46,011 bases of DNA, taken from NCBI GenBank assembly GCA_018970085.1, contig JAGWXD010000023.1, positions 1 to 46,011 of the forward strand. Direction: 5' to 3'. The number at the start of each line of letters is the position of its first letter. The first letter of the stretch is position 1. Below are positions 13,817-29,581 of the stretch, piece after piece. This DNA comes from Cyanobacteria bacterium REEB459 (GTDB lineage Bacteria; Cyanobacteriota; Cyanobacteriia; Phormidesmidales; Phormidesmidaceae). Under the pieces are notes generated by a model. It saw nothing but the letters and a program-made list of their open reading frames with translations, was not told the DNA's origin and ran no database searches. Position numbers and translations under genes: made by a program.

Positions 13817-14701
13817 ATGGTTAGCCCTTCTGGTCGGCGGTCTTCCAGTTTGGTAGCGATTATCCGCCTGTTACGTTGGGATAAGCCCAGCGGTCGTTTG
13901 ATTTTAATGATTCCTGCCCTCTGGTCGGTGTTTTTGGCTAACCCTGGACACCCCCCCTGGCCCCTGGTGGGCATTATGGTGGTCGGCAGCCTGGTCACCA
14001 GCGCCGCGGGCTGCGTTGTCAATGATCTATGGGACCGCAACATTGATCCCCAGGTGCAGCGTACCCGTCAGCGGCCACTAGCCGCCCGGGACCTATCGGT
14101 GACAGTGGGCTTGGTGGTGTTGGCCATCGCCCTGGTGTGTGCCTATGGTCTTTCCCGCTATCTCAGCCCGCTCAGCTTTTGGCTGTGTGTTCTGGCCCTC
14201 CCGGTAATTGTGCTCTATCCCCTGGCTAAACGGGTGTTTCCCGTTCCCCAACTGGTGCTTTCCCTGGCCTGGGGGTTTGCTGTGTTAATTCCCTGGAGTG
14301 CCGTCACCAGTACCCTGATGCTGCCCGCCTGGGTGTTGTGGCTGGCGGTAGTCCTCTGGACCCTGGGGTTTGACACCGTCTACGCCCTACCCGATCGCGA
14401 GGATGACCAGCGCTTAGGAATCAACTCCGCCGCCCTTTTTTTTGGCGACCATACGCCAAAAGTCGTGGGTCTGTGTTTTTTCGCTACCTGGCTGTTACTG
14501 CTCTGGTTGGGCCGGCTGCAGATGCTGGCCTGGCCCTACTGGGTGGGGCTGGCCGTAGCCTTGGTGGTCTGGGGCCGCCAGACCTACCAGCTGAGCTGTT
14601 ACCAACCTGCGGGTTCAAAACTCTATGGCCAGATCTTTCGCCAAAACGTTCAGCTAGGATTTATGGTGTTGGGGGGAATCCTTGTAGCCACCCTCCGGTA
14701 A
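13817..14701 (+). CDS. 4-hydroxybenzoate polyprenyltransferase (plastoquinone pathway UbiA type)
   Basis: A 294-residue integral membrane prenyltransferase that attaches a polyprenyl chain (solanesyl in cyanobacteria) to 4-hydroxybenzoate in plastoquinone synthesis. Two Asp-rich Mg-diphosphate motifs are present: NDLWDRNID with Asn69, Asp70, Asp73 and Asp77, and DREDD at 193-197. The remaining sequence has eight or nine hydrophobic helices, as in UbiA. Related homogentisate and chlorophyll prenyltransferases share the fold, but the LRWDKPSGRLILMIPALWS N-terminus favours the 4-hydroxybenzoate branch. A rhodanese gene starts 5 bases after the stop and is certainly on the same transcript. Confidence 0.9.
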   Translation: MVSPSGRRSSSLVAIIRLLRWDKPSGRLILMIPALWSVFLANPGHPPWPLVGIMVVGSLVTSAAGCVVNDLWDRNIDPQVQRTRQRPLAARDLSVTVGLVVLAIALVCAYGLSRYLSPLSFWLCVLALPVIVLYPLAKRVFPVPQLVLSLAWGFAVLIPWSAVTSTLMLPAWVLWLAVVLWTLGFDTVYALPDREDDQRLGINSAALFFGDHTPKVVGLCFFATWLLLLWLGRLQMLAWPYWVGLAVALVVWGRQTYQLSCYQPAGSKLYGQIFRQNVQLGFMVLGGILVATLR

Positions 14702-14706
14702 AACCT

Positions 14707-15066
14707 ATGACCTTTGCGTCTAACCCCCTGCCCTACAGCGATCTGTCCGTAGAACACCTGGGTCAGTACCTGGCGGCCCCCCAGGGAAACTGGCAGTTAA
14801 TTGATGTGCGCGAGCCAGAGGAACTGGCTCTAGCTAGTTTGCCGGGGTTTACCAACCTTCCCCTGAGTCAGTTTGCCCGATGGTCAGAGACCATGGCTGG
14901 TCAGTTCCAGGCCCAGCAGCCTACGGTGGTGCTCTGTCACCATGGCCGCCGTTCCGCCCAAATGTGTCTGTGGCTAGCGCAGCAGGGATTTACCCAACTC
15001 CATAATGTGGCCGGTGGTATTGACGCCTATGCCCTGGTGGTAGACCCTTCTGTACCTCGCTACTAG
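14707..15066 (+). CDS. Rhodanese-like domain protein
   Basis: A 119-residue single-domain rhodanese. The active-site loop is CHHGRRS with Cys77 as the sulfur-carrying nucleophile, and the first-strand motif LIDVREPEE and the terminal VAGGIDAYA are intact. Such proteins move sulfur between donors and acceptors or act in redox sensing; the target is unknown. ATG 14707 is chosen because the preceding gene stops at 14701 and the rhodanese fold begins at this point; the open frame itself extends further upstream inside ubiA. The stop codon overlaps the opposite-strand GerMN gene: both stops lie within CTAG at 15063-15066. Confidence 0.9.
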   Translation: MTFASNPLPYSDLSVEHLGQYLAAPQGNWQLIDVREPEELALASLPGFTNLPLSQFARWSETMAGQFQAQQPTVVLCHHGRRSAQMCLWLAQQGFTQLHNVAGGIDAYALVVDPSVPRY

Positions 15067-15677
15067 AGCACCAGGGCATAGCCGCGCTGGGTAAACTGCA
15101 CGGTCTTTATACCCCAGTCAGGTTGATCGATGAGGGTCTTTCGCAGGCTACCGAAAAGGGCCTTTTGCTCACAAAGAGAAAGGGATTGTAAGGACCTAGG
15201 GGAATCGCGACTAACCCTTAGATCAAGGATGGCCGTGGAGCCTTCGACCCTAACCCGGTAACCGGATAGGGTCAGATCGGCAATGGGGTTTTCCGCCAGC
15301 ATCAGACCTACAGTAGCCGCCAGACCATTGGCCCGGGGCACCTGCACCGGGTCTGGTTGGAAGCGATCGCACTGGCTATCTAGATAGTAAAGGGTCACCG
15401 TCAGCGGGTCGGCGGGTACTACCAGTCGGCGGGCTCTGAGCTTCAGGGGGTGCTGGGCTGCTGCCAGGTCTATAATCTGATCGGCCAGGGGGAGGAAGGG
15501 GGAGGGCGGCAGCGAGGGCCTACAGCTCACCCCCATTAAGCCACTGACCCCCAGTACCAGGCTGACCCCCAGGGCCCAGCCCCGAGAAAATTTCCCCTCA
15601 AGGCTGTGGCGAGTCGACCGGATACCGCTATGGTAAGGACGGTGATACAGGGACCCGGATAGAAGGCGGTCAATCAT
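15063..15677 (-). CDS. GerMN domain protein, probably exported
   Basis: A protein of up to 204 residues with a cyanobacterial GerMN-like core: [11 protein letters not shown], then an [16 protein letters not shown] strand set and a [14 protein letters not shown] helix. GerMN domains occur in spore germination proteins and in cell-envelope proteins of non-spore-formers; here a periplasmic role is likely. A hydrophobic stretch at about residues 33-52 is followed by Cys53 (GLMGVSC), which could be a weak lipobox or an anchor, but the -3 position is Gly, not Leu. The ATG at 15675-15677 shares the tetranucleotide CATG with the pyrB start on the other strand; a downstream start cannot be excluded. 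The gene fills the space between the rhodanese and pyrB genes exactly. Confidence 0.7.
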
Positions 15678-16689
15678 GAGCAATGCATCCTGGAATCGAC
15701 GGCATGTGCTGTCTCTGGCAGACTTTACCCTAACGGAACTGGAAACCGTTGTCCAAACAGCGGTCAGCTTTCGAGAAGTGCTTTCCCGACGTACCCCCAA
15801 GGTGCCAGCCCTGCAGGGCGTAGTGGTAACCACCATGTTTTTTGAATCATCCACCCGCACTCGCAGTAGTTTTGAACTGGCAGCCAAGCGCCTATCGGCA
15901 GAGGTGCTGAACTTTACCCCAGGCACCTCCTCCCTAAGTAAGGGGGAAACCATTCTGGATACTGCTAAGACCTACCTGGCTATGGGGGCCAATCTGATGG
16001 TAATCCGCCATCAAGACTCTGGAGTACCCCAGGTGATCGCCAGGGCCATGGATCAACTCAATAGTGGCGTCGGCGTCCTCAATGCCGGAGATGGGTTGCA
16101 TGCCCATCCCTCCCAGGCCCTGCTAGATTTATTTACCTTGGCCCTGGTCTTGAATCCGGACAATCCCAGCACTAGTTTATTACAGGGCAAAAAAATTGCC
16201 ATTATTGGCGATATTTTGCATTCCCGGGTGGCCCGATCTAACCTCTGGAGTTTATCTACCTGCGGGGCTGAGGTTCATCTGGCTGCGCCCCCTACCCTAC
16301 TGCCCCCGGGTTTTGCTGAGGCGTTTGCAAACCAGTCTGATCGGCCTGGAGAGCGTTCCATTGTGCAGCATAGTAGCCTGGCTCCAGCCCTGCACCAGGC
16401 TGATTTTGTCATGGCTCTGCGGCTGCAGCGGGAGCGCATGGCTCAGCACTTGCTGCCCAGCCTGCGGGAATACCAGCAGCACTTTGGTCTGACCCGAGAT
16501 CGTCTCATCTGCTGCCGACCGGGGGTGAGAATTCTCCACCCCGGGCCGGTCAATCGAGGGGTGGAAATCAGTTCAGACTTAATGGATGATTCCAGCCTTA
16601 GTTTAATTAGCGACCAGGTCCGTAATGGGGTGGCCGTACGCATGGCCCTGCTTTATCTGATGGGGGTGGGTAAGACCGCATCGGAGTAG
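15676..16689 (+). CDS. pyrB: Aspartate carbamoyltransferase, catalytic subunit
   Basis: A 337-residue enzyme that makes N-carbamoyl-aspartate from aspartate and carbamoyl phosphate, the committed step of pyrimidine synthesis. The carbamoyl-phosphate motif [10 protein letters not shown] (about residues 58-67) and the [12 protein letters not shown] segment identify it; the C-terminal [10 protein letters not shown] motif for aspartate binding is present. No regulatory subunit gene (pyrI) is nearby, as usual in cyanobacteria. Its substrate is supplied by CarB, encoded at 29.5-32.8 kb. The ATG at 15676 gives the standard N-terminus. Its promoter must lie inside the divergent GerMN gene if that gene truly starts at 15677. 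Confidence 0.96.
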
Positions 16690-16730
16690 GTACACTTGCC
16701 TGGCTCGTCACCCCCGACTCACGGGTAGAT

Positions 16731-17084
16731 CTACTCTCGGGTAGACAAACTAAAGTTTCGGAACTGCTGGGCCTGCTCTTCAATCCGACAGGCGATGCGA
16801 TCGCAAACCAGGCTGCAGAGATCAAAAATCAACAGATCAGCAATACTGTAGTAGGCAGAGGTGCCCTTGGTCCGGCGATTGAGAATGCCCGCCTGCACCA
16901 TCACCTTCAGGTGCTTGGAGACATTAGCCTGACTGGTCTGGGTCGCTTCCACCAGTTCTTGAACACAGCGCTCCCCCCCTTGCAACACGTTCAAAATTCG
17001 CAGGCGCATGGGTTCTCCCAGTACGTCAAAGTACTCTGCCACCTGCTGAACCACCTCAGGGGGAACAGTGTCAACCACAGCCAT
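16731..17084 (-). CDS. ArsR-family transcriptional regulator
   Basis: A 117-residue winged-helix repressor of the ArsR/SmtB family. The recognition helix is TSQANVSKHLKVM, followed by the wing segment NRRTKGTSAYYSI. The classical ELCVCDL arsenic site is absent (the region reads GERCVQELVEA) and no DxH zinc pair is visible near the C-terminal helix; it has scattered Cys (ERCVQ, DLCSLVCDR) that could form a different metal or thiol sensor. The start is placed at ATG 17082-17084, which gives MAVVDTVPPEVV; the upstream reading frame is AT-rich and non-coding. A 14-bp dyad lies 21 bases upstream and could be its own operator. The gene points toward pyrB's end. Confidence 0.88.
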   Translation of the reverse strand: MAVVDTVPPEVVQQVAEYFDVLGEPMRLRILNVLQGGERCVQELVEATQTSQANVSKHLKVMVQAGILNRRTKGTSAYYSIADLLIFDLCSLVCDRIACRIEEQAQQFRNFSLSTRE

Positions 17085-17105
17085 GGCTTTCCTGAACGAA
17101 GACGC

Positions 17106-17119
17106 TAAAGAATACTTTA
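17106..17119. promoter_or_regulatory. Dyad upstream of the ArsR gene, possible operator
   Basis: TAAAG (17106-17110), AATA, CTTTA (17115-17119) form a perfect 5-4-5 inverted repeat inside AT-rich DNA between the start codon and the likely promoter of the regulator gene. ArsR proteins often repress their own gene through such a dyad. The repeat is short, so the assignment is tentative. Confidence 0.4.
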
Positions 17120-17212
17120 ACAAATTTTTTATTTTTACCACCAGCCCCAGGGCTAATCAGGGTCTCCCTGTAGAGTAGAAAGCAGTTCTCCATACCCTGA
17201 CTGGAGGTGGCT

Positions 17213-18613
17213 GTGTCTTCTTTTCAGACCCTTCAACCCCCCCTGAAATTTATTCCCCACCACTATCGCGATTGGGTCAGGCGAGGGGGCTACGCCCTAT
17301 TGCCCCTGTTGTTACGGGTGCGGCTCCAACCCTGGTTGCCCGCCGGTATCTGGCCTGTTACCTGTAAAAATCCTGAGCTACTGGTCAAGGCTCTGCACCA
17401 GTTTCAATCCGGAGAAACTCGCCTGTTGCTGGCCTTTCGCCACAGTCAGGTGGATGATCCCCTATGTCTGGCCTATTTGTTTTCCCGGCTAGTGCCCCAG
17501 ACCGCCCGACAGCAAGGCCAGCCCCTAAGGCAGCCAATCCATAGTTTCTTTATGTACGATCGGGGCATGCCCCTCTGGGCCGGTGCCTGGCTAGAGTGGT
17601 TTTTTGCCAGTCTCGGGGGGGTCCCAGTGCATCGTGGCCGCCGCCTGGACCTCAAGGCTCTGAAGACAGTCCGCCACTATTTGCTGGCGGGACAGTTTCC
17701 CCTGACCATTGCCCCAGAGGGGGCAACCAACGGCCACGGAGAGGTGATCAGTCCCCTCGAGGCCGGCACGGCCCAGCTGGCCTTTTGGGGGGTGGAGGAT
17801 CTGGCTAAAGCCCAACGATCAGAGCGGGTGATGCTGTTGCCGATAGGATTGCAATATTTTTATCCCCAGCCTGACTGGTGTGCCCTAGACCGCCTACTAA
17901 GCGGCTTAGAGGCTGACTGCGGTTTACCCGAGGGGGGCCGCCCCGATCTCCACGGGCGATCTCCCCAGGCCTACTATCAGCGCCTAGCCCATTTGGGTTC
18001 CCACCTGCTGACCCAGATGGAAGGGTTCTATGGCCAGTTCTATGGCCAGCTCTGGCCCGAGGCCCAGACTCCTGATCGCCTTGATCTAGGCGATCGCCTC
18101 CAACCTCTGCTAGAACGCGCCCTGACCATAGCCGAAGCCTTTTTCCACCTACCCGGCCAGGATAGCCTGGAAAATCGCTGTCGCCAGCTAGAGGAAGCAG
18201 GCTGGGCCCGGATCTATAGAGAAGACATGGGTAATCTTGCCAATCTCTCCCCCTTTGACCGGGGTCTAGCCGACTGGATAGCTCAGACCGCCAGCTTGCA
18301 TATGCGCCATATGCGCCTGGTGGAGAGTTTTGTAGCGGTTACGGGAGATTACGTTAAAACCCGACCCAGCTTTGAACGATTGGCAGAAACCAGTTTGATC
18401 CTATTTGATCTGGTGGAACGGGTAAAGGGAACCCCTGTACCCAGACGTCCCCAAATGGGGCGGCGCCACGCAGTGATTACGCTGGCCGACCCCATCGATG
18501 TCAGTCAGCGCTGGCCCGCCTATCGGGCCTCTCGGACCGCCGCTAAAGCCGCGGTGGCCCAACTCACCGAAGATTTACAGACCGCCCTAGAGGGTCTGGT
18601 TGAGCAGACCTGA
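17213..18613 (+). CDS. PlsC-like 1-acyl-glycerol-3-phosphate acyltransferase family protein
   Basis: A protein of about 466 residues with an N-terminal PlsC-type acyltransferase domain: the catalytic HX4D box FRHSQVDDPL (His77, Asp82 from this start) and a glycerophosphate-binding-like APEGATNG motif near residue 170. The C-terminal 250 residues are specific to a cyanobacterial subgroup and are not assigned; they include charged helices but no clear membrane span. The family acylates lysophosphatidate or a related lipid. The GTG at 17213 is preferred over the GTG at 17207 because the ribosome-binding site GGAGG (17203-17207) then lies five bases before it. The gene is divergent from the ArsR regulator, but nothing shows that the regulator controls it. 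Confidence 0.8.
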   Translation: MSSFQTLQPPLKFIPHHYRDWVRRGGYALLPLLLRVRLQPWLPAGIWPVTCKNPELLVKALHQFQSGETRLLLAFRHSQVDDPLCLAYLFSRLVPQTARQQGQPLRQPIHSFFMYDRGMPLWAGAWLEWFFASLGGVPVHRGRRLDLKALKTVRHYLLAGQFPLTIAPEGATNGHGEVISPLEAGTAQLAFWGVEDLAKAQRSERVMLLPIGLQYFYPQPDWCALDRLLSGLEADCGLPEGGRPDLHGRSPQAYYQRLAHLGSHLLTQMEGFYGQFYGQLWPEAQTPDRLDLGDRLQPLLERALTIAEAFFHLPGQDSLENRCRQLEEAGWARIYREDMGNLANLSPFDRGLADWIAQTASLHMRHMRLVESFVAVTGDYVKTRPSFERLAETSLILFDLVERVKGTPVPRRPQMGRRHAVITLADPIDVSQRWPAYRASRTAAKAAVAQLTEDLQTALEGLVEQT

Positions 18614-18661
18614 AGCCCTGGCCTCCGGGTCCTTGTTTCGCAGATAAACTCGGTCCAGGGC

Positions 18662-18681
18662 GGTGGGGCCTAGGCCCCACC
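18662..18681. repeat. 20-bp perfect palindrome between the acyltransferase and rsfS
   Basis: The sequence GGTGGGGCC-TA-GGCCCCACC reads the same on both strands. Flanking CAGG and CCTG partly extend the symmetry. It begins 48 bases after the acyltransferase stop. With no loop and no U-tract it is a poor terminator but a very stable potential cruciform or dimeric protein-binding site. Confidence 0.8.
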
Positions 18682-18751
18682 CCTGATCCAGAGATTGGTA
18701 ACTAAGGCTATAGTCTAAGTATTCCTTACCTTATATAAACGTCCCTTGCCT

Positions 18752-19201
18752 ATGATGCATGCCCACCCTCAACCGACCCCTATGACCCCAGCCCTCTCCC
18801 CGTCGGTGACTCCCCTAGCTGATCAGTCCTTCCAACTTGCCTACGATATTGCTGCCGCCGCCGATCAGCGCAAGGGCTCTAACATTGTCATTTTGCCCGT
18901 GGCAGATGTATCTTACCTGGCCGATTACTTCGTTATTATCACCGGTTTCTCCACCGTTCAGGTGCGGGCCATTACCCGATCTATTGAAGCCAGTCTGGAA
19001 GAGCAATGGCAACGTCAGCCCCTGCGGCTGGAGGGGCAATTAGAGGGCAGCTGGGTGGTGATGGATTATGGCGATGTAATTGTCCATATATTTTTGCCCG
19101 AAACCAGGGATTTCTACGATTTGGAAGCCTTTTGGGGCCATACTCCCGCCCTTGTTTATCAGCCAGCTCTGAGCCCTACCCCCTCACCACCGGGCCGCTA
19201 G
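18752..19201 (+). CDS. rsfS: Ribosome silencing factor RsfS
   Basis: The product of about 149 residues belongs to the Iojap/DUF143 family. RsfS binds ribosomal protein L14 (uL14) on the 50S subunit and blocks joining of the 30S subunit in starved or dark cells. The core is intact: ADQRKGSNIVILPVADVSYLADYFVI, TGFSTVQVRAI and the VVMDYGDVIVHIFLPETRDFYDLEAFWGH block. The N-terminal 25 residues (Pro and Ser rich) are not conserved; ATG 18752 is chosen, but ATG 18755 or 18782 would serve. The Pro-rich tail is also variable. It is the first of three co-oriented genes (with CGLD27 and asparaginase). Confidence 0.9.
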   Translation: MMHAHPQPTPMTPALSPSVTPLADQSFQLAYDIAAAADQRKGSNIVILPVADVSYLADYFVIITGFSTVQVRAITRSIEASLEEQWQRQPLRLEGQLEGSWVVMDYGDVIVHIFLPETRDFYDLEAFWGHTPALVYQPALSPTPSPPGR

Positions 19202-19330
19202 GGTACCCCTATCGGGGCCAATGATTGGCTGCTACAGGCCGCAGTAGCCACCGTCGCCTGGGGCCCGGAAAGATTCCTAATCGGATGGAATTCGTTTAGG
19301 CTATAGCTAGGTTTTTAATCAACAGTGGCT

Positions 19331-19819
19331 ATGGCGCAGCTATGTCCAGTTCCGGCTGAACAACAGCCCATCAACGAGTATCAAGATGTGCGGCAGTCCT
19401 GGTTCTATAGCTGGGGTGGGCGGCATTTGGTGGCCTACCTGCGCCCAGTGGTGGGGTTGTGGTGCCTCAGTTGGGTAGTGGTTGGTCCAATGGTGGGAGC
19501 CAGTTTTTTCCCCAGTCGCCAGCCCCTGTTGTTTGCCCTCACCGCTGCCCTGGGTGCCTTAATTTTGCCGACCTTGGCTCTGCTCCAACTCTACGTGGGG
19601 TGGGCCCATGTGGCTGGGCGACTGCGTCAGGCCACCGTACCCTACGAGGAGTCGGGCTGGTATGACGGCCAGCTGTGGGTGAAGCCAGAGGACATTCGTA
19701 ACCGCGATCGCCTGATTGTGGACTACGAGGTCAGGCCGGTATTGCAACGAATTCGTTACACGTTGGGGACGATTGGTGTACTTTTTGGGCTAGGGCTACT
19801 GGTCTGGTGCCAGCTTTAA
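19331..19819 (+). CDS. CGLD27 family membrane protein
   Basis: A 162-residue protein of the CGLD27 (DUF1230) family, found in cyanobacteria, green algae, plants and diatoms. It has three hydrophobic helices (about residues 30-48, 55-80 and 140-160) and the signature RQATVPYEESGWYDGQLWVKP followed by RDRLIVDYEVRPVLQRIRYTL. In algae, loss of CGLD27 homologues has been linked to iron-starvation or chloroplast stress responses, but the molecular role is not known. ATG 19331 is used; a GTG at 19325 is possible. It follows rsfS by 129 bases and is followed by a hairpin that could be a terminator. Confidence 0.85.
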   Translation: MAQLCPVPAEQQPINEYQDVRQSWFYSWGGRHLVAYLRPVVGLWCLSWVVVGPMVGASFFPSRQPLLFALTAALGALILPTLALLQLYVGWAHVAGRLRQATVPYEESGWYDGQLWVKPEDIRNRDRLIVDYEVRPVLQRIRYTLGTIGVLFGLGLLVWCQL

Positions 19820-19839
19820 TCCTTGGTTTAAGATTACGG

Positions 19840-19865
19840 GGGTCACCTCCATAGTGACCCTTCTT
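19840..19865 (+). terminator. Probable terminator after the CGLD27 gene
   Basis: GGGTCAC (19840-19846) and GTGACCC (19854-19860) form a perfect 7-bp stem with a 7-base loop, followed by TTCTT. The T-tract is short and interrupted, so termination may be partial, allowing some read-through into the asparaginase gene. Confidence 0.6.
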
Positions 19866-19891
19866 CCACCGTTCTTCCCCAGGGCCCATCT

Positions 19892-20854
19892 ATGACCAGC
19901 AGTCGGGTTAACCGCCATCAAAGCAAGGAATTAGCCATTCAGCTTCTGCGTGAAGGTATTGTGGAGTCAACCCACATTGCCCATGTAGTGGTCTGTGACC
20001 ATCGGGGCCGGAATCTGTCTGTTGCTGGCAATGCCGAGCTGGCCAGCTTTGTCAGGTCTGCCCTGAAACCCTTTCAAGCCCTGGCAGTGGCCAATTCTGG
20101 AGCGCTGGAACGCTACGGTTTAAGCGATCGGGCCCTGGCGATTATGTGTGGTTCTCACCAGGGCGAACTGGGTCAGGTACGCCAGGTGTTTGAAATTTTA
20201 TGGCGCTGTGAGCTTGATGCCGGAGATCTGCGCTGTCCGGTACCGCTGGGGCGAAAAAGTCCCCTGGAGCATAATTGTTCTGGCAAACATGCCGGTATGC
20301 TAGCCCTTTGCCAGCAGCAAAGTTGGCCCCTGGACAGTTACCTGGACCGCAATCATCCTGTTCAGAAACTGGTTCTTTCTCGTTTGGCCGATCTGCTGGG
20401 GATGCCCGCCGATGAGTTTATTGTGGCCCACGACGACTGCGGAGTGCCCACCTATTTTATGCAAATTCGGCAAATGGCTACCTTGTTTGCCATGCTGGCC
20501 TCAGGTAATAACCTGGATATGGAGCGCATCATTCGCGCCATGGTCCATTATCCTGAGATGGTCGGGGGAGATCATAGTTTTGACACCCAGTTGATGCAGT
20601 TGACCCGCGGGGCTCTGGTGAGTAAGGCTGGAGCTGAGGGGATTCAATGCATTGGTCGGGTAGGGGAAAGCCTGGGACTGGCTATTAAGGTGCTCGACGG
20701 CAGCCGTCGGGCCAAGTATGCCACGGCTATCTTTACCCTCAAACAATTGGGTTGGATTGGCCCGGCAGAAGCCGATGTTCTGGCGGAAACCTACCTCCAT
20801 ATCGGCCGATTTAGTCGCCTGGATGTGGTGGGGGAACTGCCCCTAATGTATTGA
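19892..20854 (+). CDS. L-asparaginase, ReAV-like (class 3) type
   Basis: A 320-residue enzyme that hydrolyses L-asparagine to aspartate and ammonia. It belongs to the rhizobial/'asparaginase II' family, not to the E. coli type. Residues that form the active centre in the Rhizobium etli enzyme (Ser48-Lys51, Ser80, Cys135, Lys138, Cys189) match Ser56-Lys59 (SALK), Ser88 (CGSHQ), Cys129-Lys132 (NCSGKH) and Cys183 (HDDCG). The two cysteines and a lysine hold a zinc ion in that structure. No signal peptide is present, so the enzyme is cytoplasmic. It is the third gene of the rsfS group. In a cyanobacterium it could recover nitrogen from asparagine. Confidence 0.92.
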   Translation: MTSSRVNRHQSKELAIQLLREGIVESTHIAHVVVCDHRGRNLSVAGNAELASFVRSALKPFQALAVANSGALERYGLSDRALAIMCGSHQGELGQVRQVFEILWRCELDAGDLRCPVPLGRKSPLEHNCSGKHAGMLALCQQQSWPLDSYLDRNHPVQKLVLSRLADLLGMPADEFIVAHDDCGVPTYFMQIRQMATLFAMLASGNNLDMERIIRAMVHYPEMVGGDHSFDTQLMQLTRGALVSKAGAEGIQCIGRVGESLGLAIKVLDGSRRAKYATAIFTLKQLGWIGPAEADVLAETYLHIGRFSRLDVVGELPLMY

Positions 20855-20863
20855 GGGCCGATC

Positions 20864-20883
20864 TGCTCTGATGGACCAGAGCA
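20864..20883 (+). terminator. Hairpin after the asparaginase gene
   Basis: TGCTCTG (20864-20870) and CAGAGCA (20877-20883) form a 7-bp stem with a 6-base loop, nine bases after the stop codon. No U-tract follows, so it may be a weak terminator or a 3' protective hairpin. Confidence 0.4.
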
Positions 20884-20914
20884 CCAAGTGTGACCTGATC
20901 AAGATAATAACTAT

Positions 20915-20940
20915 TTTCTATGACTACTTTCTATGACTAC
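20915..20940 (+). repeat. 13-bp tandem duplication over the HAD gene start
   Basis: TTTCTATGACTAC occurs twice in direct succession (20915-20927 and 20928-20940) without a mismatch. Each copy holds an ATG; only the second (20933) is in frame with the phosphatase. The first ATG (20920) opens a 14-codon frame that ends inside the gene. Confidence 0.95.
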
Positions 20941-21766
20941 TCAGATTCGGTTGCTGGTTCTTGATATTGACGGCACTCTGGCGGGGGACTCTAACCAGGT
21001 TAGCCAGCCAGTGCTGGATCGTATTCAAGCGGTCCGGCAGCGGGGCATTGAGGTGGCGATCGCCACTGGCCGCATGTACCAGTCGGCCCTGCGCTTTCAC
21101 CGTCTGATTGGCTCCACCTTACCCCTGATTGCCTACCAGGGAGCCCTGATTAAAAGCCCCCAGAGTCAAGTTCTGCATCGCCATACCCCCTTACCCCGTT
21201 CCCTTACCCTGGAGCTCCTTGCCTACCTGACTCCTCTGGAGGACCGGCAAGACCTCTCTATTCATCTCTATCTAGATGATCAGCTTCACGTCCGGCAAAT
21301 TATTGCCGATACCCAGGCTTATGCCCAGCGATCGGGGATTGAGCCTCTAGCGGTGGGGGACCTGGCTACCCTGATGGCTGCTAACCCCGCCCTGGAAACC
21401 ACCAAACTATTGGCCCTGAGTAGCCAGAGTGATCGCCTGGTGGCTGTGCTTGATCACCTTAACCAGCGTTATGCCAATACGGATCTGTACCTGACCCAAT
21501 CGATTGAATCCTTTGTGGAGGCTACCCATCCCCTGGCCAATAAAGGGGAGGCGGTCCGGTTTTTGGCCGAAGAACTCCTGGATTTGGAACCGCACCAGGT
21601 GATGACCATCGGCGATAACTTTAACGACCTGGAGATGCTGCGCTACGCTGGTGTGGGTATTGCGATGGGCAATGCCCCCAGCGCCGTCAAGGCAGCGGCC
21701 GACTGGGTGGCTCCGGGGGTAGAGGCTGAGGGGGTAGCGGTGGCCCTAGAGCAGTTTTTGCTGTGA
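20933..21766 (+). CDS. HAD-IIB (Cof-type) phosphatase
   Basis: A 277-residue HAD-superfamily phosphatase. Motif I is LDIDGTL with nucleophile Asp11 and acid/base Asp13; motif II/III segments are AIATGR and GEAVRFLAEE; motif IV is TIGDNFNDLEML. The long insert between motifs II and III is the C2B cap of the Cof subgroup, which acts on sugar phosphates, nucleotides and flavins; the natural substrate is not predictable. The ATG at 20933 fits the standard N-terminus (MTTQIRLLVLDIDGT). The start lies in the second copy of a perfect tandem repeat, so a recent duplication has placed a competing ATG 13 bases upstream. Confidence 0.9.
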   Translation: MTTQIRLLVLDIDGTLAGDSNQVSQPVLDRIQAVRQRGIEVAIATGRMYQSALRFHRLIGSTLPLIAYQGALIKSPQSQVLHRHTPLPRSLTLELLAYLTPLEDRQDLSIHLYLDDQLHVRQIIADTQAYAQRSGIEPLAVGDLATLMAANPALETTKLLALSSQSDRLVAVLDHLNQRYANTDLYLTQSIESFVEATHPLANKGEAVRFLAEELLDLEPHQVMTIGDNFNDLEMLRYAGVGIAMGNAPSAVKAAADWVAPGVEAEGVAVALEQFLL

Positions 21767-21816
21767 TCGCTGGCCCAGGTTAGTCGCCCCCATGGCGCGG
21801 GGTGGGCAGAGAAACC

Positions 21817-21845
21817 TTGATAGTGCATTTGCACTGAACTATGAT
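21817..21845 (+). promoter_or_regulatory. ruvB promoter with LexA-box-like dyad
   Basis: TTGATA (21817-21822) and TATGAT (21840-21845) are near-consensus -35 and -10 hexamers with a spacer of exactly 17 bases. The spacer contains the perfect dyad AGTGC-ATTT-GCACT (21822-21835). The published cyanobacterial LexA box is RGTAC-N4-GTWCB; this site has the same 5-4-5 geometry with one symmetric substitution in each arm. Position inside the promoter fits repression. Confidence 0.6.
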
Positions 21846-21871
21846 GGGGGGGCACGCCCGCGGCAGATTCT

Positions 21872-22948
21872 ATGGCTATTGTTTCCTCCCATAACTCCGA
21901 CCCCTCCGCCAAGCCACCGCGATCGCCCCAGCCGGCTGCTCTCTCAGCAGATGCTGCTTCCCTGGTGCAGCAAGGGAGCGCCCAACCACCAGAAACGGCT
22001 CTGGTGGAGGACCACCTGCGGCCTCAGCGATTGCAGGATTACATTGGTCAATCGGCCCTTAAACAGGTATTAGACATTGCCATCCAGGCGGCTAAATCTC
22101 GCCAGGAGCCCCTTGATCACCTGCTTCTTTACGGCCCTCCTGGATTGGGGAAAACCACCATGGCCTTGATTCTGGCCCAGGAAATGGGGGTCGCCTGTAA
22201 AATTACCACCGCCCCGGCGCTGGAGCGTCCCCGGGATATTGTCGGTCTGTTGGTGAATCTGAAACCAGGGGATGTACTCTTTATTGACGAAATTCACCGG
22301 CTGCCCCGGGTGACCGAAGAAATTCTCTATCCAGCCATGGAGGACAGTCGCCTGGATATCACCATTGGTAAGGGCCAGGCCGCTCGCACCCGCAGCTTGC
22401 CCCTTGCTGCCTTTACCCTGGTGGGGGCCACCACCAGGGTAGGGGCCCTGTCCTCACCCCTGCGAGATCGCTTTGGCCTAGTGCAACGGCTACGGTTTTA
22501 CGACACCGATGAACTTACCCAGATTGTGCTGCGCACTGCTGAGGTGCTGAAAACTCCTCTGCACCTGGCGGGGGCCGAAGAAATTGCCCGTCGAGCCCGG
22601 GGGACGCCCCGCATTGCCAACCGCCTACTACGCCGGGTGCGGGACTACATGGAGGTGAAAGCTCCAGGGTTGATTACCGCTGCAGTCGCAGCCCAGGCTC
22701 TAGAGCTATTTAACGTTGATCCCCGGGGTCTAGACTGGACAGATCGCCGGCTACTTTCGGTGATTATCGAAAACTTTGATGGTGGCCCGATTGGGCTGGA
22801 AACCATGGCGGCGGCCACAGGGGAAGATAGCCAAACCATTGAGGAGGTGTATGAACCCTACCTGATGCAGATCGGCTACCTGCAGCGCACTCCCCGGGGG
22901 CGGGTGGTGACCGCCGCTGCCCGTCGTCATCTGGGCTACGGCGACTAA
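21872..22948 (+). CDS. ruvB: Holliday junction branch-migration helicase RuvB
   Basis: A 358-residue AAA+ motor that forms hexameric rings and, with RuvA, drives branch migration of Holliday junctions in recombinational repair. Walker A is GPPGLGKT at residues 88-95, Walker B is [10 protein letters not shown], sensor 1 is LVGATTR and the arginine finger region SSPLRDRFG is present; the C-terminal winged helix ends in LGY. An N-terminal extension of about 45 residues, Ser/Pro/Ala rich, is longer than in E. coli and typical of cyanobacterial members. ruvA is not adjacent. The gene has its own strong promoter with a LexA-like dyad, and its stop interlocks with the opposite-strand STAND gene. Confidence 0.97.
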
Positions 22949-25900
22949 TCCAGCCTGGCCCCCAGGGCTCTAACCAGAGCCAGGGTGGCCGTCGATAGAC
23001 CGCTAACTCCGGTCATATTCACTCCAGCGTAGGGGAGACCCGCCTGGATCACCTGCTGACAGGGCCCTGTCGGCAAGATCCAGAGACGAATTTCTGAGTC
23101 CTGACTGATGGTCATTACCCGGCTGCGATCGCTACTGACCACCGCTGCCCAGATATCTTGCCGGTGCCCCCCTAACCGGCACGGATCGGCCCCGGCGATC
23201 AGGGGCCAAATGCTTAGCACACCAGCCCGACTGGTAATCGCTAAGGCCTGGCCAGTGCCGTCCAGGGTGACGGTGTGCAACCATTCCCCCAAAGGAGCCT
23301 GCCAGTGCCCCAGTTGGGTGCCGCTATCTAGGTCCCACCAGCATACCCGGCCGTCGTAGCTGGCACTAATCAGCCGATCCCCCGTCAAGCTCAAGGCCAG
23401 GCTGTGCACCTGGCAACGATGACCCCTCAATACCCTACGACAACTCCACTGTTGCAGATCCCAGAGGCAAATGGTGCCATCTCGCCCCCCACTGATCAGC
23501 TCGGGGGCAGGGTTGGCATTTAGCCCCAGGGCGGTGGGGTTAAAGCTTAAGGCCGAGGCAGGGCCGCCATGACCAGGCAAGGTGCCCATGGTTTTGCCGC
23601 TAGCCACCTGCCAGAGACCTATGGCCCCAGTCAAGCCGGCGGCGGCCAGCCATTCTCCCCGGGGGCTCAGGGCTATCAGGGTAGCGGCTTCTGGCAAGAT
23701 TTCAACCGGCCTGGCCTGGCCCCCGGCCCGCCACCCCTGGCCAGACCAGAGGGTAATGGTGTGATCGGCCCCGCTACTGGCCCACCACTGCCCGTCATCA
23801 CTGATGGCCAGAGCATGGAGACGACCCTGCTGGGGGTCGATCAGCAAGGGTAGGGGGTCCCTGGAGGGATCCTGATCTAGGGGCCAGATGCGAATCTGGT
23901 GGTCGGTGTGGGCTGTCATCAGGTAGTTATTGGCTGCCCCAAAGGCCATGGCACAGACGCCATAGGCTTGTCGCAGAAAACTTTGCAGCAGTTCTCTGCG
24001 GTGGGTGTGCCAGAGCTGTAATCCAGCGTCATGGCCGGTTATCAGGTAGGTGCCGTCAGGGCTAAATTGTAAGCTCCAGGCCGGGGTGGCCAGGGCCGGC
24101 CCAAGTTGATGGCGGCGGCGGTGCTGAATATCCCAAAGGGTGAGGCTAACATCTTGACGGCTACAGGCCAGATAACGGCCATCGGCACTAACGGCCAGAG
24201 CTAATACCCCCTGCATGTCGGTGGGGACTGCCCATTCAGCATCGCCAGTGGCTAGCGCCCAGAGGGTCAAACCGTAGTCGTCATAGCCGGCGGCAAAGCC
24301 GAGGGGGGGGGAGCCGAGATCGCCCGGGGGCGAGAAAAACCCCGTGGTCCGAATTGAGACCCCAGGCCTGGCCTGGAAACTGGCCCCTAGGGTTGCCTGG
24401 GGTAGGTCCCAGAGGTAGGCGGTCTGGTCTTCCCCCAGGCTAATCAGGCGATCGCCGGCTGGATTAAAACGGAGTTCCTGAATCGACCCCCGATGAGCTG
24501 TCCAGTGACGCTGACAAACCCCTGAGGCTACTTCCCACAGATAGATTTGCCCCTGGTGGTTGCCCGATGCCAGCAGCTCTCCGTTGGCGGTAAAGGCCAG
24601 GGACGTCACCCGGCTGGGGGCAAGGTTGAGACGATCGGCTGGGCCCGGGGCGGCAACCGGGTAGAGCCAGAGTTGACCGGTACTGGTGCCCACCGCCAGG
24701 GTTTCACCGTCTGGGCTAAAGCAGAGGGCTGCAATCAACATCGGTGGGTCAGCCAGGGTAATCACCTGGAGGAGGTGTCCCTGGGTCAGGTGCCACCACC
24801 ACAGCCGTCCCTGGCTATCTGCCGCCACCAGACCATGACCATTGGGGCTAATTGCCAGAACCGGGTCAGCATCCAGGGGGGTAGCAAAGGCCGTGTGGTG
24901 AAACCGGGCTGATTCAAAATTAGCCCCCTGCAGGTTGATCTGGCTTAGATCGCCGTCCCAGATATCCAGGTGGGAAAAATCCGCACCCCTGAGCCCCACC
25001 CCCAAACCTTGGTAAAGCCGGATTAAGTTAGCCGGGCCGTAGCCCGGTTGAGCCAGGGCCAGCGGCCTGAGAGCCTGATACAGGCGCTGACATTTTTGCT
25101 GGCGATCGCCGCTGCTGGCCAGGTCGACTGCCAAAGCCTGAATCAACAGCTGGCAGAGCCGCTGCTGCTGCTCTGATGACCTGGCCCTAGGGGCTGTCAT
25201 GGTGATCAGGGGCAGACGATGGAACCAATCTAGCTGTTCGCTTCGCAGTTCCTCCACCAGGCAGATCTGCAGTTGGTTTAGAGCTTGCCAGGCCACCGGC
25301 TCGGGCAGATCAATAACGGTGTCTCCCAGGACCGGGTCGGCTTTGGCCCGGCACAGCGATCGGGCAATCAAAGACTGTAGAACCGATGTACCCGGGTAGG
25401 CTGGCATATCTGCTTTTAAACTGGCCAGACTGAGGGGGGTGGGGGCCAGGGCTAACCAATATAGGAGTTCTCTCTCTTCCCTAGAAAGCCTATCCATCAA
25501 AGGTTGCAGGGTTTGATCGGAGCGATCGGCTAGAGATCGGTCTGTTTGCTTTAGAAATAAAGACACCTGTCCCTGATAGAGGTCTTGAAGCGAACTGGCA
25601 AGGGCTTTTAAGGCCAGGGGTAACCCGCCATAGCGGTGGTTGAACCCAGCCCAATCTTGGGGTGTTCCGCTAACCTTGCCCTGCTGAGCCAGGAACCCTT
25701 TAACGGCCCTATCGGTCCAGCCCTGTAGGGGGTAGTCCCGCACCCGCGGCCCCGACCAATGGGCAAAGTCTTGAGGTTTCTCCTGGCTGATGCAGAGAAT
25801 ACAACTGCGATGTTGACTGGTGGCCAACTGCTGCAGCAGGGCCGATATCCCTTGTCGGCCCGCCCGATAGGTGCCCGCTAGTTGCTGGGGAGCAAATAGC

Positions 25901-26610
25901 TCTTCTAATTGATCGATCAAGATCAGAGCGGGGCTCTGACGACACCGTTCAAGGATTCGCTCAGCTAGAGGGGTGGACCGATCTGCTTGGGGGTCGGGGT
26001 CGGCTGCCAACCAATCCCCCAGAGCCTGCAACACCTGATCATCAGTGGTCTGATCGCAGAGTAGGAGGTACCCTACCCGGTCAAAATCGGCCTTCAGCCT
26101 CTGGGCTAGATAAATTGCCAGGGAGGTTTTTCCTGAACCCGGTAGCCCCCATAGCAAAATCAGGCGACAGCGATCGGCTCGAACCCACTGGAGCAGGTGC
26201 TGACAATCCGCCTGCCGTCCCCATAGTTCCGTTTCATCGAGGGGAGGTAAGGCTTGTAGGGCGATCTGCATCTGGCCTACCCTGGTCCCTGGTGACGATG
26301 GGGGAGGGGTAGCCAAGGTTTGGGCTGCCCAGGTTTGCAGTACGTTTTGTAAATTGCGTTTATTTAGTTTAATACCCTCTTGGCGGCTATCCACCAGCTC
26401 AGACAGAAAGCGCCATAGCTTTGGTCCAACATCTTTCTTTAAATAGTCTTCAGAATAGCCAACCGATAGGCTGGCGATGGCGGTGTAGGTTTGGTTCTCC
26501 CAGGCACCCTTTAACACCAGCCGCTCCACATCCTTAAGGGGCCGACCCTTTTGCGTCAGGGCCATCTGGTTGATTAGTGTGGTAATCTCCTCAAAGTCCA
26601 TAGCGGGCAA
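22945..26610 (-). CDS. STAND-type NTPase with N-terminal helical domain and WD40 repeats
   Basis: A 1,221-residue protein in three parts. Residues 1-100 form a helical domain resembling the HTH found at the N-terminus of vWA-MoxR-associated (VMAP) systems ([23 protein letters not shown]). Residues 125-500 are an NB-ARC-like STAND ATPase: Walker A GLPGSGKT (155-162), Walker [14 protein letters not shown] (228-240), a GLPLALK motif near 329. The usual sensor SREKP reads SQEKP (275-279), losing the arginine. A short pentapeptide-like stretch (541-575) precedes about 12-14 WD40 blades to the C-terminus. STAND proteins switch from autoinhibited monomers to oligomers when the repeat domain binds a ligand; the target is unknown. 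The effector domain, if any, is not recognised. Confidence 0.88.
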
Positions 26611-26679
26611 ATGGAGCTGGGGGCCGATGCAGGTAACCAGGATCTTATAGCAATCCTTCCGGAGTTAGGGGCGGGGAGG

Positions 26680-27972
26680 TTAAATTCCATTGGTGTAGTA
26701 TTCACGGGTGCCCTTGGCATCCAGGGCCTGCCCCAGTCGCTCCAGGGCATGCACGTAGGCGGCGGTACGAAGGGAAATTTTAAGGGTTTCAGCCCGCTGC
26801 CAGATCTGATCAGCCTCCGTTACCATCATTGTCTTCAGGCGGCGATGAACATCCTCAATCGACCAATACAGGCCATTGCGATTTTGTATCCATTCAAAAT
26901 AGCTAACGGTAACCCCGCCGGCGTTCACCAGGATATCGGGAAAAACCTGAATACCTCGGGCGTCTAAGATAGCGTCGGCGGCGGCGGTAATCGGCCCATT
27001 GGCTACCTCAAAAATATGGCGGGCCTTAATCTGACTAGCATTGTCTGCCGTAATTTGGTTCTCTAAAGCCGCTGGAATCAGAATATCTACCTCCAGGCTC
27101 AGCAGTTCTGCGTTGCTGATCAAGGCGTGGGCTTGACTCAGATGGCAGACACTGCCCTCGCAATAGACCGCCTTAAGACTGCGGCTAGAGGCTTTAAAGG
27201 CTTGAATACTGGGAATATCTAACCCCTGGGGCAGAAAGATACCCCCCTGGGAGTCACTCACCGCTACCACCCGATAACCAGCCTCAAATAATAATCTGGC
27301 CAGCATACTACCGGCATTACCAAATCCCTGGAGGGCCACGGTGGTGTGCTGGGGAAGGCGACCGGAGCGAGCCATCATCGCCTCCAGGACGTAGAACGCT
27401 CCCCTGGCGGTGGCGGTCTCCCGGCCCTGGCTACCTCCCAGACTGAGGGGTTTACCGGTAATCACCGCCGGGCTCAGGCGGCGGGCGATAATGCTGTACT
27501 GGTCCACCATCCAGCCCATGATCATGGCGTTGGTATACATATCGGGGGCGGGAATATCGACATCGGCACCGATAAAGTCAGCGATCGCATCAATATATCC
27601 CCGACTCAAGCGCTCTAGCTCTAATCGGGAAAGCTCCTTAGGATTGACCGTAATTCCCCCCTTAGCGCCCCCCAGGGGTAAATTTAGAGCAGCACACTTA
27701 AAGGTCATCCAAAAGGCCAGGGACTGCACCTGATCCAGGTTGACATCGGGGTGAAAACGAATGCCCCCCTTAGTCGGTCCCCGGGTGTCATCGTAGCGTA
27801 CCCGATAGCCCTGAAATATCCGCAGAGAGCCATCGTCCATGCGCACAGGAATAGCCACTATCAGACTAGCCTTGGGGGCCTTTAGCCGTTCCGCCGCATC
27901 GGCAGAAATCTTGACGTATTGGAGAGCAGCGGTGAGGCGACGGTTAGCATCGCAGAGGGTAGAAGTCAGCAT
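26680..27972 (-). CDS. gdhA: Glutamate dehydrogenase (Glu/Leu/Phe/Val dehydrogenase family)
   Basis: A 430-residue enzyme interconverting glutamate and 2-oxoglutarate plus ammonium. The substrate-binding lysine in GPTKGGIRF (Lys68), the catalytic lysine in GGAKGGI (Lys104) and Asp144 in PAPDMYTN are present, and the dinucleotide fold shows GFGNAG at 216-221. Cofactor preference cannot be read with confidence. In cyanobacteria this enzyme is a minor ammonium-assimilation route beside glutamine synthetase. ATG 27970-27972 is chosen as start; the frame remains open upstream into the pentapeptide gene on the same strand, but those residues are not family-like. It lies 28 bases downstream of that gene and may be co-transcribed. 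Confidence 0.93.
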   Translation of the reverse strand: MLTSTLCDANRRLTAALQYVKISADAAERLKAPKASLIVAIPVRMDDGSLRIFQGYRVRYDDTRGPTKGGIRFHPDVNLDQVQSLAFWMTFKCAALNLPLGGAKGGITVNPKELSRLELERLSRGYIDAIADFIGADVDIPAPDMYTNAMIMGWMVDQYSIIARRLSPAVITGKPLSLGGSQGRETATARGAFYVLEAMMARSGRLPQHTTVALQGFGNAGSMLARLLFEAGYRVVAVSDSQGGIFLPQGLDIPSIQAFKASSRSLKAVYCEGSVCHLSQAHALISNAELLSLEVDILIPAALENQITADNASQIKARHIFEVANGPITAAADAILDARGIQVFPDILVNAGGVTVSYFEWIQNRNGLYWSIEDVHRRLKTMMVTEADQIWQRAETLKISLRTAAYVHALERLGQALDAKGTREYYTNGI

Positions 27973-28000
27973 ACCTAAAGGGTAATCTAAAAACCCAGGC

Positions 28001-28432
28001 CTAATCCCCCCCCACGCTGATCGGAGTACCCACAATATCTGCCTGGGTGAGGTTAGCCCCCACCAGAGAGGTCCCCTTCACCTGGGCAAAGTAAATCTGG
28101 GCCCTGGTTAGGTTAGCCTGGTCCAGGGTGGCCCCATCAAGGGTAGCATTGGTTAAAAAGGCCTGGCTAAGATCGGCTCGGGTGAGGTTAGCCCCGGTTA
28201 AATCAGCTCCTTCTAGATTAGCCTCCACCAGGGTGGCAGCGCCCAGATCAGCCCCCCGTAAATCGGCTCCAATCAGATGGGCCTGGGTGAGTTGGGCCCC
28301 CGACAGGTCACAGCCCTGACAGAGATTGGTCTCAAGCAGCTGTTTCACCTGCAGAGGATTTTCAGCCCTTAGGGGTAAGGTCCACAGCACCGGCAGAATT
28401 ACTGCAATACTGGCTAGTGTCATCAGTTTCAT
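28001..28432 (-). CDS. Secreted pentapeptide-repeat protein
   Basis: A 143-residue protein with a signal peptide (MKLMTLASIAVILPVLWTL, cleavage probably after LRA) followed by a short helix and about 16 pentapeptide repeats of the A(D/N)LXX form that build a right-handed beta-helix. The LCQGCDLSGAQL segment near residue 35 holds a CxxC-like pair and is common in cyanobacterial members. Location is probably periplasm or thylakoid lumen; no enzymatic function is known for this type. ATG 28430-28432 is preferred because it starts the signal peptide; an upstream ATG at 28453 adds seven non-conserved residues. It lies upstream of gdhA on the same strand. Confidence 0.85.
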   Translation of the reverse strand: MKLMTLASIAVILPVLWTLPLRAENPLQVKQLLETNLCQGCDLSGAQLTQAHLIGADLRGADLGAATLVEANLEGADLTGANLTRADLSQAFLTNATLDGATLDQANLTRAQIYFAQVKGTSLVGANLTQADIVGTPISVGGD

Positions 28433-28652
28433 GGCGATTCTCCTGACTATCACCCCAACTCTCTACCTGGGGAATCGGAGTGGCCTGAGGCAGTGATTGA
28501 CGATGGTGGGCCATCTGTCCGCCTGGGGGAGTGGAAGCTGGTTGGCTGGAGTCGACCCCGAATTGAGCAGCTAGCTGCTTTCTATCAATCACCGATGCTT
28601 TGATCTTGCCATAGGGCTGCCCACCGGGTAGGTCGGAAAGCCGTACTGTCAT
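28362..28652 (-). CDS. Small hypothetical protein (low support)
   Basis: An open frame of about 96 codons from ATG 28650-28652, not recognised. The first half (SDLPGGQPYGKIKASVIDRKQLAAQFGV) has a plausible protein composition; the second half is Ser/Gln/Pro rich and overlaps the start of the pentapeptide gene by 71 bases in another frame. It may be a real upstream gene, or a chance frame in an otherwise empty leader region. No ribosome-binding site stands out. Confidence 0.25.
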   Translation of the reverse strand: MTVRLSDLPGGQPYGKIKASVIDRKQLAAQFGVDSSQPASTPPGGQMAHHRQSLPQATPIPQVESWGDSQENRHETDDTSQYCSNSAGAVDLTPKG

Positions 28653-28816
28653 CAAACTAATTGTCAGGCAGCCTGGATGCCAGGTGACAACAGCAGCCCC
28701 GATGGCTTATGGGCTCAGTTACGGATTAAGGGCTACCCATTCAAGTATTGCCACCACCTCACCGGACCTGCCCCATCAGCCAGCCTATAATACGAAAACT
28801 ATTTGGCAAGAGTTCT
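28433..28816. other. Divergent intergenic region between pentapeptide and DUF554 genes
   Basis: Apart from the weakly supported small frame, I see no gene, RNA or strong hairpin here. Both flanking genes are read outward, so promoters for both should lie in this stretch. Confidence 0.4.
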
Positions 28817-29581
28817 ATGCTTAGCCTGTGGGCTAAAACCAGTGGCACCTGGATAAACGTCCTAACCATTATGCTAGGCACCGGCCTGGGGCTGAGGTTG
28901 CGCCGTAGTCTCCCCCCCACCATGCAACACATCATTACCCAGGCCCTGGGTCTGACCACGATTATGCTGGGGATTGGCATGGGCCAGAGTCTGGCCAGAG
29001 TCAGAATTGGTGTGATTGACGGGGTAATTTTTGGTTTAGTGATATTGGTGGTAGGGGGCCTCTTGGGAGAGTGGTGGCAGCTTCAGGACCGGCTTAGCCA
29101 ACTGGGGGACTGGCTCAAATCCCAGGTCAAAGGCGGGGGTAAGTTTACTGAGGGGTTTGTAGCCGCCAGCCTGCTGTTTTGTATTGGCCCTATGGCAATT
29201 TTGGGTAGCCTTAACAATGGCCTGGTGGGCGATGCTACCCTGCTTAGTCTGAAAGCCACCATGGATGGTCTGGCCGCCATTGCCCTCACCGGTAACTACG
29301 GCGTAGGCGTCGGGTTTTCAGCCTTGCCGGTATTACTACTGCAGGGGGGATTATCCCTGATAGCCAGTCTTTCGGGACTAGTGCTGACCAGTCCGGCTAG
29401 CAATACCTATATTTTGAGCATCACTGGTATTGGGGGACTGATGATTATGGCCCTGGGGTTAAATTTACTAGAGGTTGTACAGATTCGCCTGGCCTCCTTT
29501 TTGCCCGCCTTGGTCCTGGGTCCTCTAGCGATCGCCCTGGTTACAGCCCTATCGGGGGTCAGCAATATATTCTTGAATTGA
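28817..29581 (+). CDS. DUF554 family membrane protein
   Basis: A 254-residue integral membrane protein of the DUF554 (YdfK/YqgA) family, with about seven hydrophobic helices. Conserved glycine-rich motifs of the family are seen: GTGLGLRLR near the N-terminus, LGIGMGQSL, and [16 protein letters not shown] in the middle. The function is unknown; a transport role has been suggested for the family but is not shown. The ATG at 28817 begins the family-typical N-terminus; the frame is open to 28748 but those residues are polar and non-conserved. The last 33 bases overlap the 3' end of carB on the opposite strand. Confidence 0.85.

Follow-up and report, generated by a model that had tools for sequence, protein, structure and literature searches.

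A conserved dyad in the ruvB promoter of a cyanobacterial genus, most likely a variant LexA operator

What is the inverted repeat inside the ruvB promoter of Cyanobacteria bacterium REEB459, and does LexA act on it? In the window (the whole stretch of 46,011 nucleotides analyzed), the plus strand carries TTGATA at 21817–21822, a 17-bp spacer, and TATGAT at 21840–21845, upstream of a frame at 21872–22948 whose Pfam matches (PF05496, PF17864 and PF05491) identify it as the 358-aa Holliday junction helicase RuvB. The first-pass annotation had pointed to this pair of hexamers, and it does have the best promoter score in positions 14001–30000 (10 of 12), a region in which promoter-like sites occur in a chance number (8 observed, 7.9 expected). 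The dyad, AGTGCATTTGCACT, occupies 21822–21835 on the same strand and ends 36 bases ahead of the ruvB ATG (21872). It had been described as a perfect 5-4-5 dyad. The dyad is indeed there, but its pairing extends to 6-2-6 (AGTGCA-TT-TGCACT) and begins in the −35 hexamer, the final base of which is dyad base 1. It therefore covers the −35 end and the spacer of the predicted promoter, an overlap to be looked for in a LexA operator. The stretch from the −10 hexamer to the start codon (21846–21871) would hold the transcription start and a short ruvB leader.

Perfect dyads are common in the window (77 of the 5-4-5 type and 21 of the 6-2-6 type over 45,998 positions). Since the dyad alone is not rare, it is conservation that places the element beyond chance. 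The exact 18-bp core TTGATAGTGCAWWTGCAC stands ahead of ruvB in 23 of the 26 genomes of the genus, in a single copy each and at no other place. Likewise, 23 of the 26 carry an exact TTGATAGTGCANNTGCAC, once per genome and upstream of ruvB. Allowing up to two mismatches, TTGATAGTGCANNTGCAC gave 66 matches in the 26 genomes against 30 for a control; these are the 23 exact ones at ruvB and 43 with two mismatches, of which one is at ruvB of G002 and 42 are at other places. When the 23 genomes are anchored on TTGATA, which belongs to the pattern that defines them, the mean share of the commonest base is 97% over a 29-bp block (positions 0 to 28), compared with 53% in the 60 bases upstream and 81% in the 31 downstream. 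Within the dyad, variation is limited to the center, which is AA or TT, and to the final position, where 21 genomes have C and two have T. The −10 hexamer reads TATCAT, TATGAT or TATTAT, and TTGATA lies 55 to 57 bases from the ATG, in all 23. The block is better conserved than the lexA promoter, where the best 29-bp block reaches 84%. It is clear that the ruvB element is real and strongly constrained, and the earlier suggestion that a LexA-like dyad in this promoter is under selection is borne out; conservation ahead of the same gene in relatives is also what a LexA operator should display. The three genomes of the genus without the exact element, G002, G015 and G021, form one clade in the RuvB tree (99/90; G455 was excluded from the tree). 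G002 has a displaced dyad, AGTGCATGTGCACC, farther from its −10. G015 and G021 have TATGAT and ruvB, and no dyad upstream of ruvB.

The likeness to the cyanobacterial LexA box is close and specific in its exceptions. The dyad fits the published consensus AGTACWNWTGTACT (PMC3091678) throughout save positions 4 and 11, and the annotated single symmetric mismatch per arm is confirmed at just these positions: against RGTAC and GTWCB, the arms are AGTGC and GCACT. It shares with that box (also written RGTACNNNDGTWCB) the 14-bp dyad, the spacing, A at 6, T at 9 and the overlap of a repair-gene promoter, and differs symmetrically in G at 4 and C at 11. Both of these bases are absent from the 48 predicted sites in Table 1 of PMC3091678, 47 of which have T at position 11. 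Scored with a profile of those 48 sites, the window dyad reaches 7.9 and most dyads of the genus 5.5, while the lexA and recA boxes of the source genome reach 16.6 and 9.8. Ten of the 91,996 14-mers of the window (both strands, dyad counted) attain the score of the dyad.

The source genome encodes LexA (one LexA-domain match, PF01726, E 1.4e-24), and the Ala-Gly, Ser and Lys of self-cleaving LexA are present by eye (residue roles from PMC3091678). Upstream of its lexA gene stands GGTACAATTGTTCT. A lexA gene was found in 25 of the 26 genomes of the genus; none was found in G021, whose assembly is 87% complete, and the missing gene may be an assembly gap. The lexA box matches RGTACNNNDGTWCB without mismatch in 23 of the 25. 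The other two are G015, whose box is at least two mismatches away, and G006, which has no lexA-box reading, its lexA match beginning at residue 21. No AGTGC arm is seen at lexA in the 23 genomes with the box. In G015 and G021, which have lost the ruvB dyad, lexA has a degenerate box or was not found, respectively, within a single clade and with G021 incomplete; G015 retains a LexA-like box at recA. Many genomes of the genus encode a second LexA-like protein (~35–46% identity), and the source genome gave no second match.

For recA, matches were found in 19 of the 20 genomes of the genus searched, and the box was read at one (best) locus per genome, most genomes having several. Two to four recA matches were present in 18 of the 20, with one in the source genome and none in G005. 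The box is GGTTC-N4-GTACT, one mismatch from consensus, in 15 of the 19, and AATTC-N4-GTACT in G014; in G001 and G003, no box was seen at the single recA locus read. In G006, the box is AGTGC-AAGC-GTACTATACT versus GGTTC-AAGC-GTACTATACT in relatives (in full, AGTGCAAGCGTACTATACT, where several relatives read GGTTCAAGCGTACTATACT). The recA match of G006 carries one in-frame stop, and G006 adjoins the source organism in the RuvB tree, weakly (90/68). The stretch SPAPIQSRL, which we take to be the LexA recognition helix, is identical in all the LexA proteins compared, 10 from the genus and 8 from elsewhere in the family.

We also scored the 100 bases upstream of ruvB in other genera with the profile of published sites (PMC3091678, Table 1), using 100 dinucleotide shuffles each. 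The best score had p ≤ 0.05 (uncorrected, with relatives not independent) in 21 of 32 non-g1 genomes of the family, 7 of 22 in the wider class and 20 of 25 in the genus; for p ≤ 0.01 the numbers are 9, 4 and 1, respectively. At least one genome at p ≤ 0.05 occurs in 11 of the 13 other (non-g1) genera of the family, with none in g164 and g165 and mixed results in g2 and g8. The LexA-like boxes of the other family genomes lie 29 to 84 bases ahead of the ruvB ATG. Scoring left out G046, for which no start was found, G014, whose upstream stretch was short, and G456, where the start had been misread and TATAGTACATTTGTCTAG lies ahead of the true ruvB start; no match to ruvB was obtained in G031, G440, G444 and G457. 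The boxes take several forms. TATAGTACATTTGT is common to most genomes of g3, g4, g6 and g166, and AGTACATTTGCCCT stands before ruvB in g33. Forms of AATACG-N3-GTTCT are found in four of six g2 genomes and in g9, some of them in a TTGAGT-17-TAGAAT layout.

Two genera have the layout of the window's ruvB promoter, a −35, 17 bp and a −10 enclosing AGTGC-N4-GAACY: TAGATA-GTGCATCTGAACCAGGA-TAAGAT in g163 (G435 and G436) and TGGATA-GTGCTGTTGAACTATTC-TATGAT in g5 (G029). An AGTGC arm also occurs in g7, opposite an ATACT right arm (AGTGCGTTTATACT). Since AGTGC stands in the recA box of G006 and in the ruvB boxes of g5 and g163, it appears to take the place of a LexA half-site at both recA and ruvB. 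The first-pass annotation had supposed that both arms changed together; with the same layout in g163 and g5 holding one AGTGC arm and one GAAC arm, stepwise change is the likelier. In the RuvB tree, the genus (100/98) and the pairing of g5 with g163 (96/98) are supported, and the fork between these two and the g2/g8/g9/g164 group is left unsettled. With that fork open and AGTGC also present in g7, the likeliest order would be that AGTGC appeared first opposite GAAC, and that GAAC then became GCAC in the genus.

On these grounds, we favor reading the conserved dyad as a LexA operator of ruvB that departs from the standard form and is probably weaker. A LexA dimer would most likely bind the dyad and, because the dyad overlies the −35 end and the spacer, would block RNA polymerase. 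After DNA damage, RecA would trigger LexA self-cleavage and ruvB would be expressed, which suggests that ruvB may be damage-controlled in this cyanobacterial group. Because both half-sites are GCAC rather than GTAC, GTTC or GAAC, binding at ruvB is predicted to fall short of that at lexA and recA; the promoter would then be leaky or released early. A further step, which we put forward tentatively and would not rate as high as even, is that the LexA of the family recognizes two kinds of half-site, GTWC/GAAC in the lexA and recA boxes and GCAC in that of ruvB, and that the ruvB operator has been fixed as a weak but symmetric site, giving Holliday-junction processing a release threshold of its own. 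One feature was unexpected: near-invariance is not obviously needed by a weak operator, and conservation exceeding that of the lexA promoter counts against the LexA reading.

That same conservation, in a single-copy block, beyond what LexA's own lexA promoter shows, is what lends weight to the main rival, in which some other dimeric repressor or activator owns the dyad and controls ruvB. Both half-sites, moreover, deviate at the position that is nearly fixed in the published LexA sites. However, ordinary LexA arms stand opposite AGTGC in the ruvB boxes of g5 and g163 and in the recA box of G006; it would be unusual for a regulator to act on just one gene besides its own; and the gene directly upstream of ruvB in the window encodes a HAD-type hydrolase, not a regulator. 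We consider this rival unlikely, at perhaps a third of the weight given to a LexA operator.

The occurrence of the dyad away from ruvB bears on how special the site is. The first-pass annotation had named beforehand, as signs against its idea, the absence of the dyad in close relatives or its occurrence apart from other repair genes. The dyad is kept in the relatives, but AGTGCN4GCACT has one match in the 3.24-Mb source genome, at ruvB, as many as a reversed control pattern. Without the promoter, as RGTGCANNTGCACY, the dyad occurs 76 times across the genus (26 genomes), versus 30 for a control pattern that, holding ACGT, is imperfectly matched. Of these, 25 are at ruvB (one in each of the 23 genomes, one in G002, and a further copy on a second contig of G014) and 51, still above the control, are elsewhere; the source genome has the ruvB site only. 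Among the non-ruvB sites listed, 41 have G or C in the center and nine have an AT-only center like the ruvB site. Three of the nine are inside an aldo/keto reductase gene (G007, G014 and G017; Pfam on the G007 copy), two inside histidine-kinase genes (G018 and G023), one each in a 991-aa frame (G002) and a 124-aa frame (G024) with no Pfam match, one apparently intergenic (G012), and one just ahead of a Peptidase_M23 gene (G011). The bare dyad is therefore not strictly limited to ruvB in the genus, and no second conserved promoter was seen among the nine AT-centered sites read. Across 386 genomes of the phylum, TAGTGCAWWTGCAC matched 49 (source genome included) versus 4 for the control. None of the 30 sites inspected with flanks by eye, out of 54 listed, resembled the ruvB promoter, and many had common coding-looking flanks resembling the aldo/keto reductase gene. 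TAGTGCAAATGCAC recurs in other cyanobacterial families, in a conserved stretch resembling that gene of G007 (L259–L266, L374–L376).

These dyads away from ruvB slightly lower the LexA-operator reading and slightly raise the case that the block is just a strong conserved core promoter, with the dyad a by-product and nothing bound to it. Both hexamers are conserved along with the dyad, and in G015 and G021 ruvB persists with a TATGAT but no dyad, as that case would have it. Sigma-70 promoter spacers are not usually so constrained, however, and here the dyad bases of the spacer are invariant in 23 genomes except for the central AA/TT, a change that spares the outer dyad. LexA-like boxes before ruvB in several genera also speak against it, and we regard a bare promoter as improbable, more so than another regulator. 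Very improbable is the shifted repressor specificity proposed in the first-pass annotation, by which the LexA of the lineage changed its DNA specificity and its regulon moved along: both arms do depart symmetrically from consensus, but the lexA boxes are consensus, the recA boxes are close to it, the presumed recognition helix is kept, and the genome has no second AGTGCN4GCACT.

A LexA operator at ruvB has partial precedents. As far as the available portions of PMC3091678 go, a high-scoring ruvB LexA site was predicted only in high-light Prochlorococcus; there too ruvB is predicted to be under cyanobacterial LexA, but the lineage is another one. Here, the LexA-like boxes before ruvB span the 11 genera of one family counted above. 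According to the same paper, ruvB is in the core SOS set of E. coli, whose LexA box is different, CTG-(TA)5-CAG. The arrangement also differs from E. coli, in that ruvA and ruvB are reported not to be adjacent in cyanobacteria (PMC5101192); directly upstream of ruvB here is the gene for the HAD-type hydrolase. PMC5101192, citing Domain 2004, further states that Synechocystis LexA does not regulate DNA repair. The main text of PMC4759255, as far as available, yielded nothing on a ruvB box, and titles and abstract openings yielded no literature on this one; nothing further was found on LexA half-site affinity in cyanobacteria or on the Leptolyngbya LexA/SOS response. With the role of cyanobacterial LexA in the DNA-damage response disputed, a conserved LexA-like ruvB operator offers a clean single-gene test, and the natural series of operator variants in the family offers a gauge of how half-site changes tune LexA.

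The wider LexA regulon could not be defined from patterns in the source genome, where RGTRCN4GYACY was not enriched (41 sites versus 39 in the control) and neither was RGTACNNNTGWWCY (10 matches versus 17). A distant search of phages with window positions 21700–22000 gave no match. A consensus LexA box, AGTACAATTGTTCT, does occur at G000:C52:24529–24542 (L253), overlapping TATAGT upstream of small reading frames, and is possibly a further LexA target. In G011 (C7, ~125528; L379:1450–1520), AGTGCATTTGCACT lies ~16 bases before a LexA-like AATGCAATTGTACT, upstream of the Peptidase_M23 gene or in an extended 5′ end of it; its relative G008 has no such AT-centered RGTGCANNTGCACY site among those listed. 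Finally, an inverted repeat (AGGGG...CCCCT) is often present between the −10 and the ATG of ruvB, in 21846–21871 of the window and the same stretch of the 23 genomes; it is absent in G006, 3 bp in the window, and 8 bp in G008 and G010.
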